This document shows positions 12,762 to 18,438 of a stretch of 64,000 nucleotides of DNA, piece by piece. The position numbers and the translations under genes were made by a program. Under the pieces are notes generated by a model that searched no databases, was not told the origin of the DNA, and saw nothing but the letters and a program-made list of their open reading frames with translations. The stretch is from Thermoproteota archaeon. Its GTDB lineage: Archaea > Korarchaeota > Korarchaeia > Korarchaeales > Korarchaeaceae. The stretch is taken from NCBI GenBank assembly GCA_027491395.1, contig JAOZFI010000006.1, positions 62,001-126,000 of the forward strand, in the 5' to 3' direction. Every line of letters begins with the position of its first letter. Position 1 is the first letter of the stretch.

Positions 12762-13791
12762 TTTGCCTTCCTCCCAGCTTTGATCTAACGGTTCTCAACA
12801 GCTCCTCTATTCCGAAACCCTTCTCTGCAGATATCTCCATGAATTCGGCCCCCTCCCTTACCAAGAAGTTTCTAGTCTCGGAGAACTTATCTAGATAGTC
12901 ACTTTCCATATCTATCTTATTGATCACGGCAACTATCTCCCCAGAAAAGTTAGCCACGATGTCCTTGAACAGGGACCTCTGTTCGTCTAGCGCATAGCCA
13001 CAAGTCTCAGTGGGATCGAACAAATACAGGACCAAACCACTCACATGCTTAAGGGCCACTATAGCCTGCATCTCTATCCTATTTCTCTTGGAGAGAGGTC
13101 TATCCAACAAACCAGGGGTGTCGATGAACTGGACCCTCCCAACGCCCTCCAAATCCCGGTGTCCTATGATGATGCCTTTGGTGGTAAAAGGATATGGGGC
13201 TATCTCAGGTTCCTTGGTGGTAATCTTGGAAAGAAGTGTGCTCTTTCCCGTGTTGGGCATGCCAGCTATTATTACAGAGGGCAGAGCAGGATCAAAATCC
13301 GGTAGATTCCTGAGCTTCGGTGTTACTCCTCTCAAGAAGTCCAATTCGGGCTTGATCCTCTTCAATACGGACGATATTCTACCTGCCGCCTCCCTTCTGA
13401 GGGTCGCCATGCGTTCAGGATCCTCTGTCCAATTTATCTTGGAGATGTAGGATCTGGAGATCCTCGAGATTGTCTTAGAGGCCCATTTAACGGCGCCTAG
13501 AGCATGTCTCACTTGATCTACACCAGCCAAGACGTCCAAAAGTTCTCTATAGAAGGGATCTAACCTTTCCACGCTGGGGAAGGACTTCACCACCTTATCT
13601 AGCCTGCTAACCACCGTGTCGGAAATCGTCTGAATTCTAGATATTTCCCTAGATCTGTAAATCGCTATCCTGTCCCCTCTCCTTGACACAGGCTTGGGTT
13701 TCTTGAATGCCCTCCTGAAGGAGATGTCTAGCAGTTCATCCACGCTAAGAGGGACTACGGCCCTCCTGAAGGGATTAGGCAATTTTATCAA
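12733..13791 (-). CDS. Nog1-type GTPase, ribosome assembly
   Basis: GTPase of the NOG1/COG1084 family, whose eukaryotic member acts in 60S ribosome biogenesis. It has an N-terminal helical domain of about 150 residues, followed by the G domain with GMPNTGKSTLL (G1), PYPFTTKGI (G2), DTPGLLDRP (G3) and NKID (G4). The TTG at 13791 was chosen because it shares bases with the upstream stop (TTGA) and puts LPNPFRR near the N terminus, as in relatives. The length is 352 aa. It lies in the leftward tRNA/ribosome maturation cluster. Confidence 0.9.
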   Translation of the reverse strand: MIKLPNPFRRAVVPLSVDELLDISFRRAFKKPKPVSRRGDRIAIYRSREISRIQTISDTVVSRLDKVVKSFPSVERLDPFYRELLDVLAGVDQVRHALGAVKWASKTISRISRSYISKINWTEDPERMATLRREAAGRISSVLKRIKPELDFLRGVTPKLRNLPDFDPALPSVIIAGMPNTGKSTLLSKITTKEPEIAPYPFTTKGIIIGHRDLEGVGRVQFIDTPGLLDRPLSKRNRIEMQAIVALKHVSGLVLYLFDPTETCGYALDEQRSLFKDIVANFSGEIVAVINKIDMESDYLDKFSETRNFLVREGAEFMEISAEKGFGIEELLRTVRSKLGGRQIEDSISSVR

Positions 13792-14924
13792 CTCAGGAAG
13801 AATAAGAGGACATTGTATATCAGCATTAGCGCGATAGGCGCTGACATGGCCCATGTTAGCTTGCGGGCCAGCTCCTCATCGCCCAAATACATGGTAAGTA
13901 TCTCTGAGAGGACCAATCCCCCGTCCAAAGGTAACATAGGCAGGGCATTGAGGCCAGCCAGTCCCAGATTGAACATGATCAGGAACCCAAGCAGCTCTAT
14001 CAGCTGGATTGCTACCCCGGTCGGCATAGGGACTATGGGATCGAAGTAGGGCACCCTCGATAGCATCACCCCTAAGAAGGGTGAGCTCGGATCGTCAGGC
14101 CTAGATCCCAGCCTCACCCTGTAGGTGCCCCTATCAGTGACGACATCCACCTCCTGACCAGGTCTCAGCTTTTCAAGTGCCTTCACCAAACTAGAGAAAT
14201 CCCTAACCCTGTAACCACCTATCTGCCTTATGACAACTCCATCCGGGAGTATCCCGTGGGATGGTCCGTCCTCTATAACCTCCTGAACATACACACCAGA
14301 AGGATGGGACATCCCTGGGAATATCGAGAAACCCGGGAATATGATCATGGCCAGAAGGAGAGCCACGAAGAACGTAGCGAAGTTCATGAAGATCCCGGCC
14401 GAATAGACGCCCATCCTCTTAAGAGGCTCTAGTTTCTTGAGTATCTCCTCATCCGGCTCTACAAAGGCACCTAACAGGACAAATAGAACGAAAAAAGCTA
14501 TCTTCCTGATGGGGACCCCGAAGTACCAGCTGGCAGCAGCATGTCCAAATTCATGCACGGCTAATATCACGAATATGGAGATCAGGAGGGGAGCGGATAT
14601 GTCGAAGGTGACCCCCGGTATCACAGGGGCTATCTGGGCGACCTTCGGACCGAATAAGGTGTCTATGGTTATTTTGACGAGGAATATGAGGAATAACGAG
14701 GAGGAGATCAGGAGAGCACCAATCCCGACCTTATATAGGGGACCGACGAACCTAGCCAATCCTCCTATGATCCCCCTGAAGCTCTCCGGCTTGAAGGAGA
14801 ACTCCAAGTAGAAGACACCCATCTTAGCCCTCTCCCCTCCGAGATAACGGTTCAATAAGAGGCCAGCAAGGTAAGCCACAGCCCAAAATACGAGGAAGTT
14901 CACTAGGAAACCTTGGGATATCAA
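13788..14924 (-). CDS. Site-2-protease-like membrane metalloprotease (M50) with PDZ
   Basis: An intramembrane protease of about 378 aa with several hydrophobic helices. The zinc motif HEFGH is at residues 124-128. A PDZ-like domain lies in the middle (from about GVYVQEVIEDGPSHGILPDG). The second metal motif LPMLPLDGG lies in a C-terminal helix. Such enzymes cleave transmembrane helices of signalling or membrane proteins. The start is TTG at 14924, 7 bases after the preceding M20 stop. Its substrate is unknown. The two secreted peptidases in this window have anchors, but no link is shown. Confidence 0.88.
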   Translation of the reverse strand: MISQGFLVNFLVFWAVAYLAGLLLNRYLGGERAKMGVFYLEFSFKPESFRGIIGGLARFVGPLYKVGIGALLISSSLFLIFLVKITIDTLFGPKVAQIAPVIPGVTFDISAPLLISIFVILAVHEFGHAAASWYFGVPIRKIAFFVLFVLLGAFVEPDEEILKKLEPLKRMGVYSAGIFMNFATFFVALLLAMIIFPGFSIFPGMSHPSGVYVQEVIEDGPSHGILPDGVVIRQIGGYRVRDFSSLVKALEKLRPGQEVDVVTDRGTYRVRLGSRPDDPSSPFLGVMLSRVPYFDPIVPMPTGVAIQLIELLGFLIMFNLGLAGLNALPMLPLDGGLVLSEILTMYLGDEELARKLTWAMSAPIALMLIYNVLLFFLS

Positions 14925-14930
14925 GACGGA

Positions 14931-16055
14931 TCAACCCTTCAAGAGGTGCGCCAAGAACTCCGCCATCTCATACACGGAGGGGAGCTTGACGTACTCATCC
15001 GCTGAGTGGTGATTACCCCCCTCAGGCCCCAGTATAATGGGCTTAATGCTAGCCATCTTGTAGAGGTAATTGGCATCAGAGACCGTCCTGTAAACGTCCG
15101 TCTCAAGACGCCCTCCAAACACATTCTCTGCAACTTCTTGCACTTTCTTAACGAATTCATCATCCTCAGGAAGTTCATAGGGCTCCATGAAGGGAGTAGG
15201 CCTCTTCATTAGGGATATCTTGATTTTGGCCCTCAACTCAGGTGTCTTCCTTAGATGGTCCATGAACTTCTTTCTTATAACACCCGGATCGTTACCGGGC
15301 GGGTAATGCCTATCCAGCCTGACCAGACATCTGTCCGGATGGGCCATTACCAGCTCCGGAGACTTTATACTCAAGGGAGCTACGCTACCGCCTATTCCAT
15401 CGACCTTAGGCAGGTCCACAGCCCACAGAATGACCTTAGCTGCTTCTATGACGGCGTTTATACCGGCCTCCTCAGTCCCAGGCGCTGCCAATCCCTTTAC
15501 GTCGACATCGAATACGAACCTGCCGAATGCTCCCCTGAAGAGCTTCTTATTGGTCGGTCCGGCCACGATGGCCTCACTGACTCGCGGCAGGATACCACTC
15601 CTCAGGAGCTCGTAGGTCCCCCTGCTGAAACCCTCGGCATCGCATACAGCAGCAAAGACGACTCCCCTACTGTCATCCCATTTTGAGGCAGCTATGAAGG
15701 CCTCTATCATCGCAGCCAGCATTCCCTTGTCGTCAAAAACCCCCAGTCCATAGAGTTTGTCCTCCTCCAGCTCACCCCAGGGATTCTTGGTCCAATTGGA
15801 GTATATCTCGAATGTGTCGGTGTGGGCAAGGAACAGCAGGTTATCCTGATTTTTCACATTGAGGAAGGCCACGACGTTACCGGCACAATCTTTGACCGGT
15901 TGGTGGACTACCTTGTCAGCATACCTCGATAGAGTGTCTGTTATGTAGTAAACAGCCTCACCCTCCCTTCCCCTCAAACTCTTTATACCGACTAAATCTA
16001 TCAACAAATTGCGCGTCCTTTCCTGATCCGTAAGGCCCATCTGATCCCCCCTCAT
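14931..16055 (-). CDS. M20 family metallopeptidase/deacylase
   Basis: A 374 aa zinc hydrolase of the ArgE/DapE/CPG2 group. Metal and catalytic motifs are LAHTDTF, YGLGVFDDKG, CDAEGFSRGT and the C-terminal GGNHHSADE. A dimerisation insert lies between. The family contains peptidases, acetylornithine and succinyl-diaminopimelate deacylases, and LysK. The sequence alone does not choose among these, and no arginine or lysine genes are adjacent. ATG at 16055 overlaps the psmB stop (ATGA). A second ATG five codons later lies close behind GGGGGATC. Confidence 0.85.
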   Translation of the reverse strand: MRGDQMGLTDQERTRNLLIDLVGIKSLRGREGEAVYYITDTLSRYADKVVHQPVKDCAGNVVAFLNVKNQDNLLFLAHTDTFEIYSNWTKNPWGELEEDKLYGLGVFDDKGMLAAMIEAFIAASKWDDSRGVVFAAVCDAEGFSRGTYELLRSGILPRVSEAIVAGPTNKKLFRGAFGRFVFDVDVKGLAAPGTEEAGINAVIEAAKVILWAVDLPKVDGIGGSVAPLSIKSPELVMAHPDRCLVRLDRHYPPGNDPGVIRKKFMDHLRKTPELRAKIKISLMKRPTPFMEPYELPEDDEFVKKVQEVAENVFGGRLETDVYRTVSDANYLYKMASIKPIILGPEGGNHHSADEYVKLPSVYEMAEFLAHLLKG

Positions 16056-16648
16056 GCCGATCTCAGGGGGATATACAGCTGCCTAGCACCCGATTCGGTA
16101 ATCACCAGCAGGTCCACACCGTCTCCTGACAGGGCGTCCCTCGATATGGCCTCCTTCATTGCCTTCTCAGCTAAAGAAAGGGCTTCCTCTTCACTCAAGT
16201 CCTCCCTATATTCCCTCTCCAAGATACCCGTGGCTATCTGCGCTCCAGTACCTACAGCCGCGAACTTTTCCTCCATAAGCCCTCCAGCAGGATCTAAGAC
16301 TAATATCTTGGGTTCTCCGTCCTCTAAACCACCTACTATAAGCTCAGTGTAGTAAATTCCCCTAAACCTCCCCTGATAGAGAAGCAGAGATAGTAGCTTG
16401 GCGACATTCGTAGGAGAAGCCTTCTTATCCAAATCCAGCTCATACAGAGTCGTGTTGAACTTCACGACATCGACTAACTCTTGGAAGTCGCCAGGAAGTC
16501 CGGCAGTGGAAATACCGACCTTATCATTAACTAGGAACACTTTCTTGGCGGACTTACTGAGGACGAATGTACCGTAAGATACTCTCCTGTCCGCCGCGAG
16601 AACGACACCGCCCTTGAATTTCAAGCCCAGAGCAGTAGCCAGAACCAC
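16052..16648 (-). CDS. psmB: Proteasome beta subunit, Thr1 replaced by Ala
   Basis: N-terminal nucleophile hydrolase fold of the 20S proteasome beta ring. Aligning GLKFKGGVVLAADRRVSYG with active beta subunits puts Asp17, Arg19 and Lys33 (in SKSAKK) in place. Residue 1, however, is the first Ala of ATALG, where active subunits have TTTxG. The likely reading is a structural, non-cleaving beta paralogue. As I recall, one of the Sulfolobus beta subunits also begins ATAxG. GTG at 16648 follows GAGGGGTG and gives 198 aa. Longer frames run through tRNA-Thr and are not plausible. It sits 21 bases behind tRNA-Thr. Confidence 0.9.
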   Translation of the reverse strand: MVLATALGLKFKGGVVLAADRRVSYGTFVLSKSAKKVFLVNDKVGISTAGLPGDFQELVDVVKFNTTLYELDLDKKASPTNVAKLLSLLLYQGRFRGIYYTELIVGGLEDGEPKILVLDPAGGLMEEKFAAVGTGAQIATGILEREYREDLSEEEALSLAEKAMKEAISRDALSGDGVDLLVITESGARQLYIPLRSA

Positions 16649-16669: not shown

Positions 16670-16747
16670 TGGAGCCCCGGGCGGGATTCGAACCCGCGAC
16701 CTCCGCCTTACCAAGGCGGCGCTCTAACCGAGCTGAGCTACCGGGGC
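16670..16747 (-). tRNA. tRNA-Thr(GGU)
   Basis: Cloverleaf with acceptor GCCCCGG/CCGGGGC, D arm GCTCAGCTCGGTTAGAGC, anticodon stem CCGCC/GGCGG around TTGGTAA (anticodon GGT), T arm CGGGTTCGAATCCCG, discriminator T, and an encoded CCA (16672-16670). There is no intron. A same-strand proteasome gene starts 21 bases after the CCA. Confidence 0.97.
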
Positions 16748-16785: not shown

Positions 16786-18438
16786 TCAGGTAATCCTCCT
16801 AGCTCTTATGAGGGCCGCTAAGGAGATGATCGCGACGAGCATGATGGCTAGGTATGGAATGTACTCTAGGTAGCCATGGCGCCTCCTGAGCTCGATTTTC
16901 ACGCTCGTGTCCTCCCTAAAGTACCCAGTAAAGCTCGAGGAGAGGGTTGACACATAGATGAATAGGCCTCCCTCATCCTCATACCACTTAAAGTAAACGG
17001 AGGGGAGGTCTACCTCCACATCGGGAAGGAAATTCCCTTCATCAGGCAATTGCAGTCGAAGGTATACAACTGGAGTGACCTTGGAGATGCTCACTCTGTA
17101 CATGTAACCATTCCTCTCTATGATATAGGGGGTCTGGTGAGATGCCAGACTCAAGGTAGGATCACCCAGCAGGACCTCATAAGCCGCCTCTTTGGGGCTT
17201 ATCCCTTTCTCCGTGGCCTCTTTTATGTGTAAGTTGTTCACCGTCATAACAGCCTCTCCCAACGTGCGACCCGTCAGGGCCATCATCAAGATGAGATCTG
17301 GATAGGAGGTACCCGCCTCAGATCCTATGCTGAACTCTACTCTCGTGGCTCCTATATATGCAAACGCTCCGGCTTCTAGAAACGAATAGGCTATGGAACT
17401 CTTGGGATCATCGAGATCTGAGAACCTCAGGGTATCGCATGACAGGGTGATCACTATAGCTCCCAACGGTCTAGCGGACCTCACTATGGAGGGTATGATG
17501 ACTACATGCCCCTCGGTCTTCAGGGCCATGGCGTAGGGGTTTCCGTGCAGGTTGAGATAGATAATACCATTTCTTGCCTCTCTGAGCATCTTAGCGGAGT
17601 CCTTCACCGTCAGATTGGAATACTCCACATCGGGGTGCAACACCTTCGTGCTCAATCCGTAGGATGATGCTATGAATTCCACTTTCCTAGCTAAAGGGAG
17701 ATCCTCAATGAGGGAGATACCTCTAAGTCTGTTGATCAAACCCATTGAAGCAGCATCGTCCGCGAGCAGCATCAGGAAGGGTGCAGCCACATCGGGACCG
17801 GTAAGGACTCCTAAGGAGGCGTCTAGATACGGATCATCGTCTATACAGGTTAGGAAGTCTATAACATTCAGATACCTCTCATAGTTTCGGGAGGTGAGGG
17901 GCTTGGTCAATAAGATGACGTACCTAACCCCCTTCAAGAGTTCCCGGCTCAGTTGAGCCGAATCCAAATCAATTAATTTAGCCTTTTTGAGAAAGGCTGC
18001 ATAGGCCGCCAGTAAAGAGTAATCCGGCCCATCCGAGCTGTAGAACAGGACTGCAACTTCACTCTCCATAGAAGATAGCTCTTGGGATATGAGATCCAAT
18101 TTCTTTAGGAGGGGTTCAAAGTCAGCCCCTTGAATACCCTTCTCTTTGGAGTAAAGTAGGAAATAAGCGAGTTCGTGAGGGGTCATCTCTCTAAGGATGG
18201 CTCCATATGATCCAACTTTTGCAGGGAATCCCATCTCCCTGAGCCGATCGCTCATATAGGAGGCGTTCCGGGCGACTACTATCCTCTCCTGCGGGCCCAT
18301 CGAGAGGAAGAATGCTGAAGCTGATCCGTAATCCTCGAAGACATGAACTAGGGGAAGGCTGCCGGCTTGAGCGGGTGTTAGGATCGAAACATCCGACATT
18401 ACCATCAGTGAAACGATGATGAGAAGAAAAGATCTCAA
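16786..18438 (-). CDS. Secreted, membrane-anchored gingipain-like (C25) cysteine protease
   Basis: A 550 aa protein with a signal peptide (about residues 1-26) and a C-terminal transmembrane helix (about 525-543) followed by a short basic tail. The central part carries the clan CD dyad in the C25/caspase layout. His298 lies in YLNLHGN after a hydrophobic strand, and Cys334 in IVITLSCDTLRFSD. The typical SIAYSFLEAGAFAYIGATR and GDPTLSL segments follow. A large N-terminal region and a beta-rich membrane-proximal region flank it. It should act on the outer face of the membrane. It starts in a 4-base overlap with the small gene upstream. Family assignment is from motifs only. Confidence 0.72.
   Translation of the reverse strand: MRSFLLIIVSLMVMSDVSILTPAQAGSLPLVHVFEDYGSASAFFLSMGPQERIVVARNASYMSDRLREMGFPAKVGSYGAILREMTPHELAYFLLYSKEKGIQGADFEPLLKKLDLISQELSSMESEVAVLFYSSDGPDYSLLAAYAAFLKKAKLIDLDSAQLSRELLKGVRYVILLTKPLTSRNYERYLNVIDFLTCIDDDPYLDASLGVLTGPDVAAPFLMLLADDAASMGLINRLRGISLIEDLPLARKVEFIASSYGLSTKVLHPDVEYSNLTVKDSAKMLREARNGIIYLNLHGNPYAMALKTEGHVVIIPSIVRSARPLGAIVITLSCDTLRFSDLDDPKSSIAYSFLEAGAFAYIGATRVEFSIGSEAGTSYPDLILMMALTGRTLGEAVMTVNNLHIKEATEKGISPKEAAYEVLLGDPTLSLASHQTPYIIERNGYMYRVSISKVTPVVYLRLQLPDEGNFLPDVEVDLPSVYFKWYEDEGGLFIYVSTLSSSFTGYFREDTSVKIELRRRHGYLEYIPYLAIMLVAIISLAALIRARRIT

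Follow-up and report, generated by a model that had tools for sequence, protein, structure and literature searches.

The window, a stretch of 64,000 nucleotides analysed as a whole, carries a gene for a proteasome beta-type protein on its reverse strand, with a tRNA-Thr gene directly upstream and an M20-family peptidase gene downstream (Table 1). A Shine-Dalgarno-like GAGGGGTG precedes the GTG at 16648, a few bases past the tRNA gene, and translation from this codon yields an N terminus of M-V-L-A1-T2-A3-L4-G5. The (M)VL leader is common to most of the family, and the (M)VL-ATxxG start is found again in related genomes behind ATG, GTG or TTG, a recurrence that supports the GTG start. A longer open reading frame beginning with TTG at 16714 reads through the tRNA-Thr gene and was rejected as an artefact.

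The gene itself is ordinary for the window. Its stop codon overlaps the M20 gene by four nucleotides (ATGA), the two genes are probably translationally coupled, and the pair is kept in the other family members that were read. Four peptidase-family genes stand in a row on this strand between 13788 and 18438, and their order (C25-like, inert beta, M20, M50-like) is kept across the genus. The first of them encodes 550 amino acids with a weak match, over the cut-off, to Peptidase_C25 (gingipain-like; residues 248-431, 3.4e-08) and a hydrophobic segment at either end; its product is likely a membrane-anchored extracytoplasmic caspase-fold protease.

Table 1. Genes and individual codons at the proteasome beta locus, in window coordinates.
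Feature	Position	Strand	Remarks
C25-like peptidase	16786-18438	-	
tRNA-Thr(GGT)	16670-16747	-	directly upstream of the beta gene
Predicted non-catalytic proteasome beta subunit, crenarchaeal Saci0662 type	16052-16648	-	198 aa; GTG start at 16648, TGA stop at 16054-16052
Leader M-V-L	16640-16648	-	three residues; lacks Gly at -1, no real propeptide
Residue 1 codon, GCT (Ala)	16637-16639	-	position of catalytic Thr1 in active subunits
Lys33 codon	16541-16543	-	kept in 70/70 orthologues
M20-family peptidase (ArgE/DapE-like)	14931-16055	-	4-nt overlap (ATGA) with the beta stop codon
M50/site-2-protease-like peptidase	13788-14924	-	

Position 1 and the catalytic pocket

The protein matches the Pfam Proteasome family PF00227 above the cut-off (4e-51) and the archaeal beta model TIGR03634 with 210 bits (1.9e-62), just under the curated equivalog cut-off of 224 bits, a cut-off that the active beta of the same genome also misses with 204 bits. 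The TIGR03634 match spans positions 2-184 of 185, and a match over the whole domain places the protein among archaeal 20S beta subunits. Catalytic beta subunits of this family carry Thr1, exposed by cleavage between Gly-1 and Thr1; the window protein has Leu-1 and Ala1 behind its three-residue leader. Thr1 and any autolytic processing site are missing.

The first-pass annotation, which named no strand, had described a beta subunit in which Ala replaces the catalytic threonine (ATALG), and A1-T-A-L-G5 was indeed read here. The gap-free alignment to active subunits that it reported from Gly5 to Lys33 extends from residue 1 to residue 33, with Asp17, Arg19 and Lys33 all present as claimed. Its description of the pocket as intact apart from the nucleophile stands for Asp17, Lys33, Asp166 and Ser169, and Gly47 is also present, but it fails at the site of Ser129 (numbered as in T. 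acidophilum), which is occupied by Thr in the window protein as in 49 of the 70 inactive betas of the clade-wide alignment.

That alignment comprised 70 distinct inactive-type and 26 active-type genes, sampled from within the genus outwards to Bathyarchaeota, Nitrososphaerota, Methanomethylicota, Desulfurococcales and Sulfolobales (Sulfolobus). Residue 1 was Thr in all 26 active paralogues, and in the inactive type it was always a small residue (Ala in 64, Gly in 6, Thr in 0), in no case Thr, Ser or Cys. Within the same family, Ala occupied this position in the 22/22 other orthologues read (L005-L026), and across the clade it was written by all four GCN codons, indicating that the amino acid is kept and not the codon. 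Absence of Thr1 is a trait of the clade. The likelihood that a misassigned start, a sequencing error or a pseudogene conceals a true N terminus with Thr1 is therefore practically nil: a sequencing slip would not explain Ala in every other family orthologue read, or its encoding by four different codons across the clade, and the reading frame is unbroken and reaches 98% identity with its orthologues in sister species.

Lys33 is invariant in both the inactive and the active types, Asp166 is present in all 70 inactive orthologues, and Ser/Thr169 is nearly invariant. Outside Thr1 the pocket is conserved unusually well for a dead site, and a purely structural explanation leaves this conservation unaccounted for directly. 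The retained Lys33, Asp166 and Ser/Thr169 may be structural. It is rather unlikely that the inert pocket is under selection beyond scaffolding, for example by holding an N terminus, a product or a substrate segment beside the active sites, or by fixing how many active sites each ring contains.

Partner subunits and the inert Saci0662

The genome (1.72 Mb in 62 contigs, 98.4% complete) contains three PF00227 genes: the window beta, an alpha subunit (L003) and a second beta (L001). The alpha subunit lies on the same contig as the window beta, about 30 kb away (C26:48438-48965), and the second beta lies on another contig (C37:36941-37483), with a propeptide that ends in LLKG|TTTVG. The search that the first-pass annotation had proposed, for an alpha subunit and for a further beta carrying TTTxG, thus recovered both, and its scenario of a single beta gene is excluded by the LLKG|TTTVG subunit in the same genome. 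An alpha subunit and an active TTTVG beta are encoded elsewhere in this genome.

The closest chain in the PDB is 6z46_H, from a particle with 14 copies of one beta, and its sequence begins MTAIG. A natural gene (L104) is identical to this chain over 187/187 residues and reads ELP-ATAIG, which indicates that native Saci0662 has Ala1; the crystallised construct, judged by this comparison, is trimmed so that its chain begins Met-Thr2. The chain is labelled simply "Proteasome subunit beta"; we infer that 6z46 is Saci0662 from its assembly, in which one beta is present 14 times, and from its agreement with the construct that was published. With the S. acidocaldarius subunits, alpha and truncated Saci0662 formed a 28-mer without activity (Anjum et al. 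2015, PMC4569737), Saci0909 gave no stable assembly when combined with alpha only, and addition of Saci0909 to alpha and Saci0662 gave an active particle that contained Saci0909 at a lower ratio. The authors' conclusion was that Saci0662 seems to be an inert, structural subunit, and they credited both betas with an "equivalent threonine" (PMC4569737). By alignment, the equivalent threonine of Saci0662 is Thr2 and not Thr1, and this register would explain the missing activity.

These data bear directly on the proposal that Thr2 of the window protein becomes an alternative N-terminal nucleophile once Met-Val-Leu-Ala has been removed, making the subunit catalytic. Thr2 is invariant in 70/70 inactive orthologues, and Lys33, Asp17/Glu17, Asp166 and Ser169 are kept. 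However, Thr2 is equally invariant in the active subunits (26/26), so that its conservation needs no catalytic role, and as a nucleophile it would lie one residue out of register without any compensating gap. Truncated Saci0662, which starts with Met-Thr2, assembled with alpha and was inactive (PMC4569737), and an ordinary Thr1 beta is available in the genome. We regard catalysis by Thr2 as extremely unlikely, and the suggestion in the first-pass annotation that this residue may serve as nucleophile found no support. With an active beta present, that alternative has no foundation here. The mixed-ring arrangement is already known.

The window protein is very probably the non-catalytic structural beta of a 20S proteasome built from three kinds of subunit (alpha, active beta and inert beta), a type found across Thermoproteota-like archaea. 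By homology with Saci0662, the inert beta would share heptameric rings, stacked on alpha rings, with the active beta and would supply contacts within the ring and with the alpha ring. Cleavage would be left to the TTTVG subunit alone, which would be interspersed in smaller numbers. Its N terminus would need no autolytic maturation, because just three residues precede Ala1. The structural role in a mixed ring that had been suggested from the window is well supported by this analysis, given the TTTVG beta and alpha in the genome and the shared clade with the experimentally inert Saci0662. The inert beta could instead form separate, all-inert homomeric rings, as a non-proteolytic chamber or decoy particle, as Saci0662 does when expressed without Saci0909 (6z46, 14 copies; PMC4569737). 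We consider this very unlikely, as the mixed active 28-mer was formed when both S. acidocaldarius betas were supplied (PMC4569737), and we found no in vivo evidence for separate all-inert particles.

Distribution and comparison with known mixed rings

Of the 106 rows in the tree, the 71 of the inactive type, including the window protein and Saci0662/6z46, formed a single clade (SH-aLRT 100); the tree was built by a quick search and has long branches for the active subunits of several lineages. The window beta belongs to the Saci0662 clade, and this grouping, the missing Thr1 and the separate active beta and alpha in the genome together point to a Saci0662-type subunit. In a survey of another archaeal phylum (121 genomes, each at least 95% complete), the best match was of the inert type in 120 genomes, and at least three proteasome-family matches were found in 119. 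Residue 1 was read directly in the retrieved loci only, and the survey genomes were typed by score and by a match that began no later than query residue 4.

Two genomes, G100 (96% complete) and G123 (95% complete, 9% contaminated), show alpha and the inert beta and no Thr1 beta (loci L130, L134, L137 and L131). They were rejected as cases with only an inert beta, the Thr1 beta probably having been lost with missing contigs, since both are drafts and three matches are present in relatives of G100 from its own genus. An apparent lack of the inert beta in G148 was also rejected, the gene being split over two contig ends (L141, L144). G017 and G028 are only 71-78% complete and are uninformative on beta content.

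What the analysis adds is the conservation of the inert beta with Ala or Gly at position 1 in several archaeal phyla. A mixed beta ring that includes a subunit dedicated to an inert role is probably an old and stable arrangement in these phyla and not a peculiarity of Sulfolobus. Work by Tarrason Risa (Science, 2020) is said to be relevant to the S. acidocaldarius proteasome.

The window beta resembles Saci0662 (PDB 6z46 chain H) in its clade, native Ala1, Lys33 and short leader, and in that the genome also encodes an active beta as its partner and a single alpha. The two are about 49% identical (measured on the identical gene in G103) and differ at position 17 (Asp in the window beta, Glu in Saci0662), at position 129 (Thr and Ser) and in the leader, which is MVL in the window beta and a longer one ending in ELP in Saci0662. 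The active archaeal betas (the genome's own, A. fulgidus 1j2q and T. acidophilum 1pma) belong to the same fold family and have D/E17, R19, K33, G47, D166 and S/T169 in common with the window beta. Unlike it, they have a propeptide, Gly-1 and Thr1, and Ser129 with the following Gly-Ser is invariant in the active rows aligned, whereas the window beta has Thr at 129.

In eukaryotes, four of the seven betas of the ring are inert. These subunits, beta3, beta4, beta6 and beta7, are alike in working to the window beta as inert members of mixed rings, a likeness of role. In a BLAST search by Anjum et al., yeast beta7 was nearest to Saci0662 (PMC4569737). The archaeal mixed ring would offer a simple precedent for the ring of eukaryotes with its inert betas.
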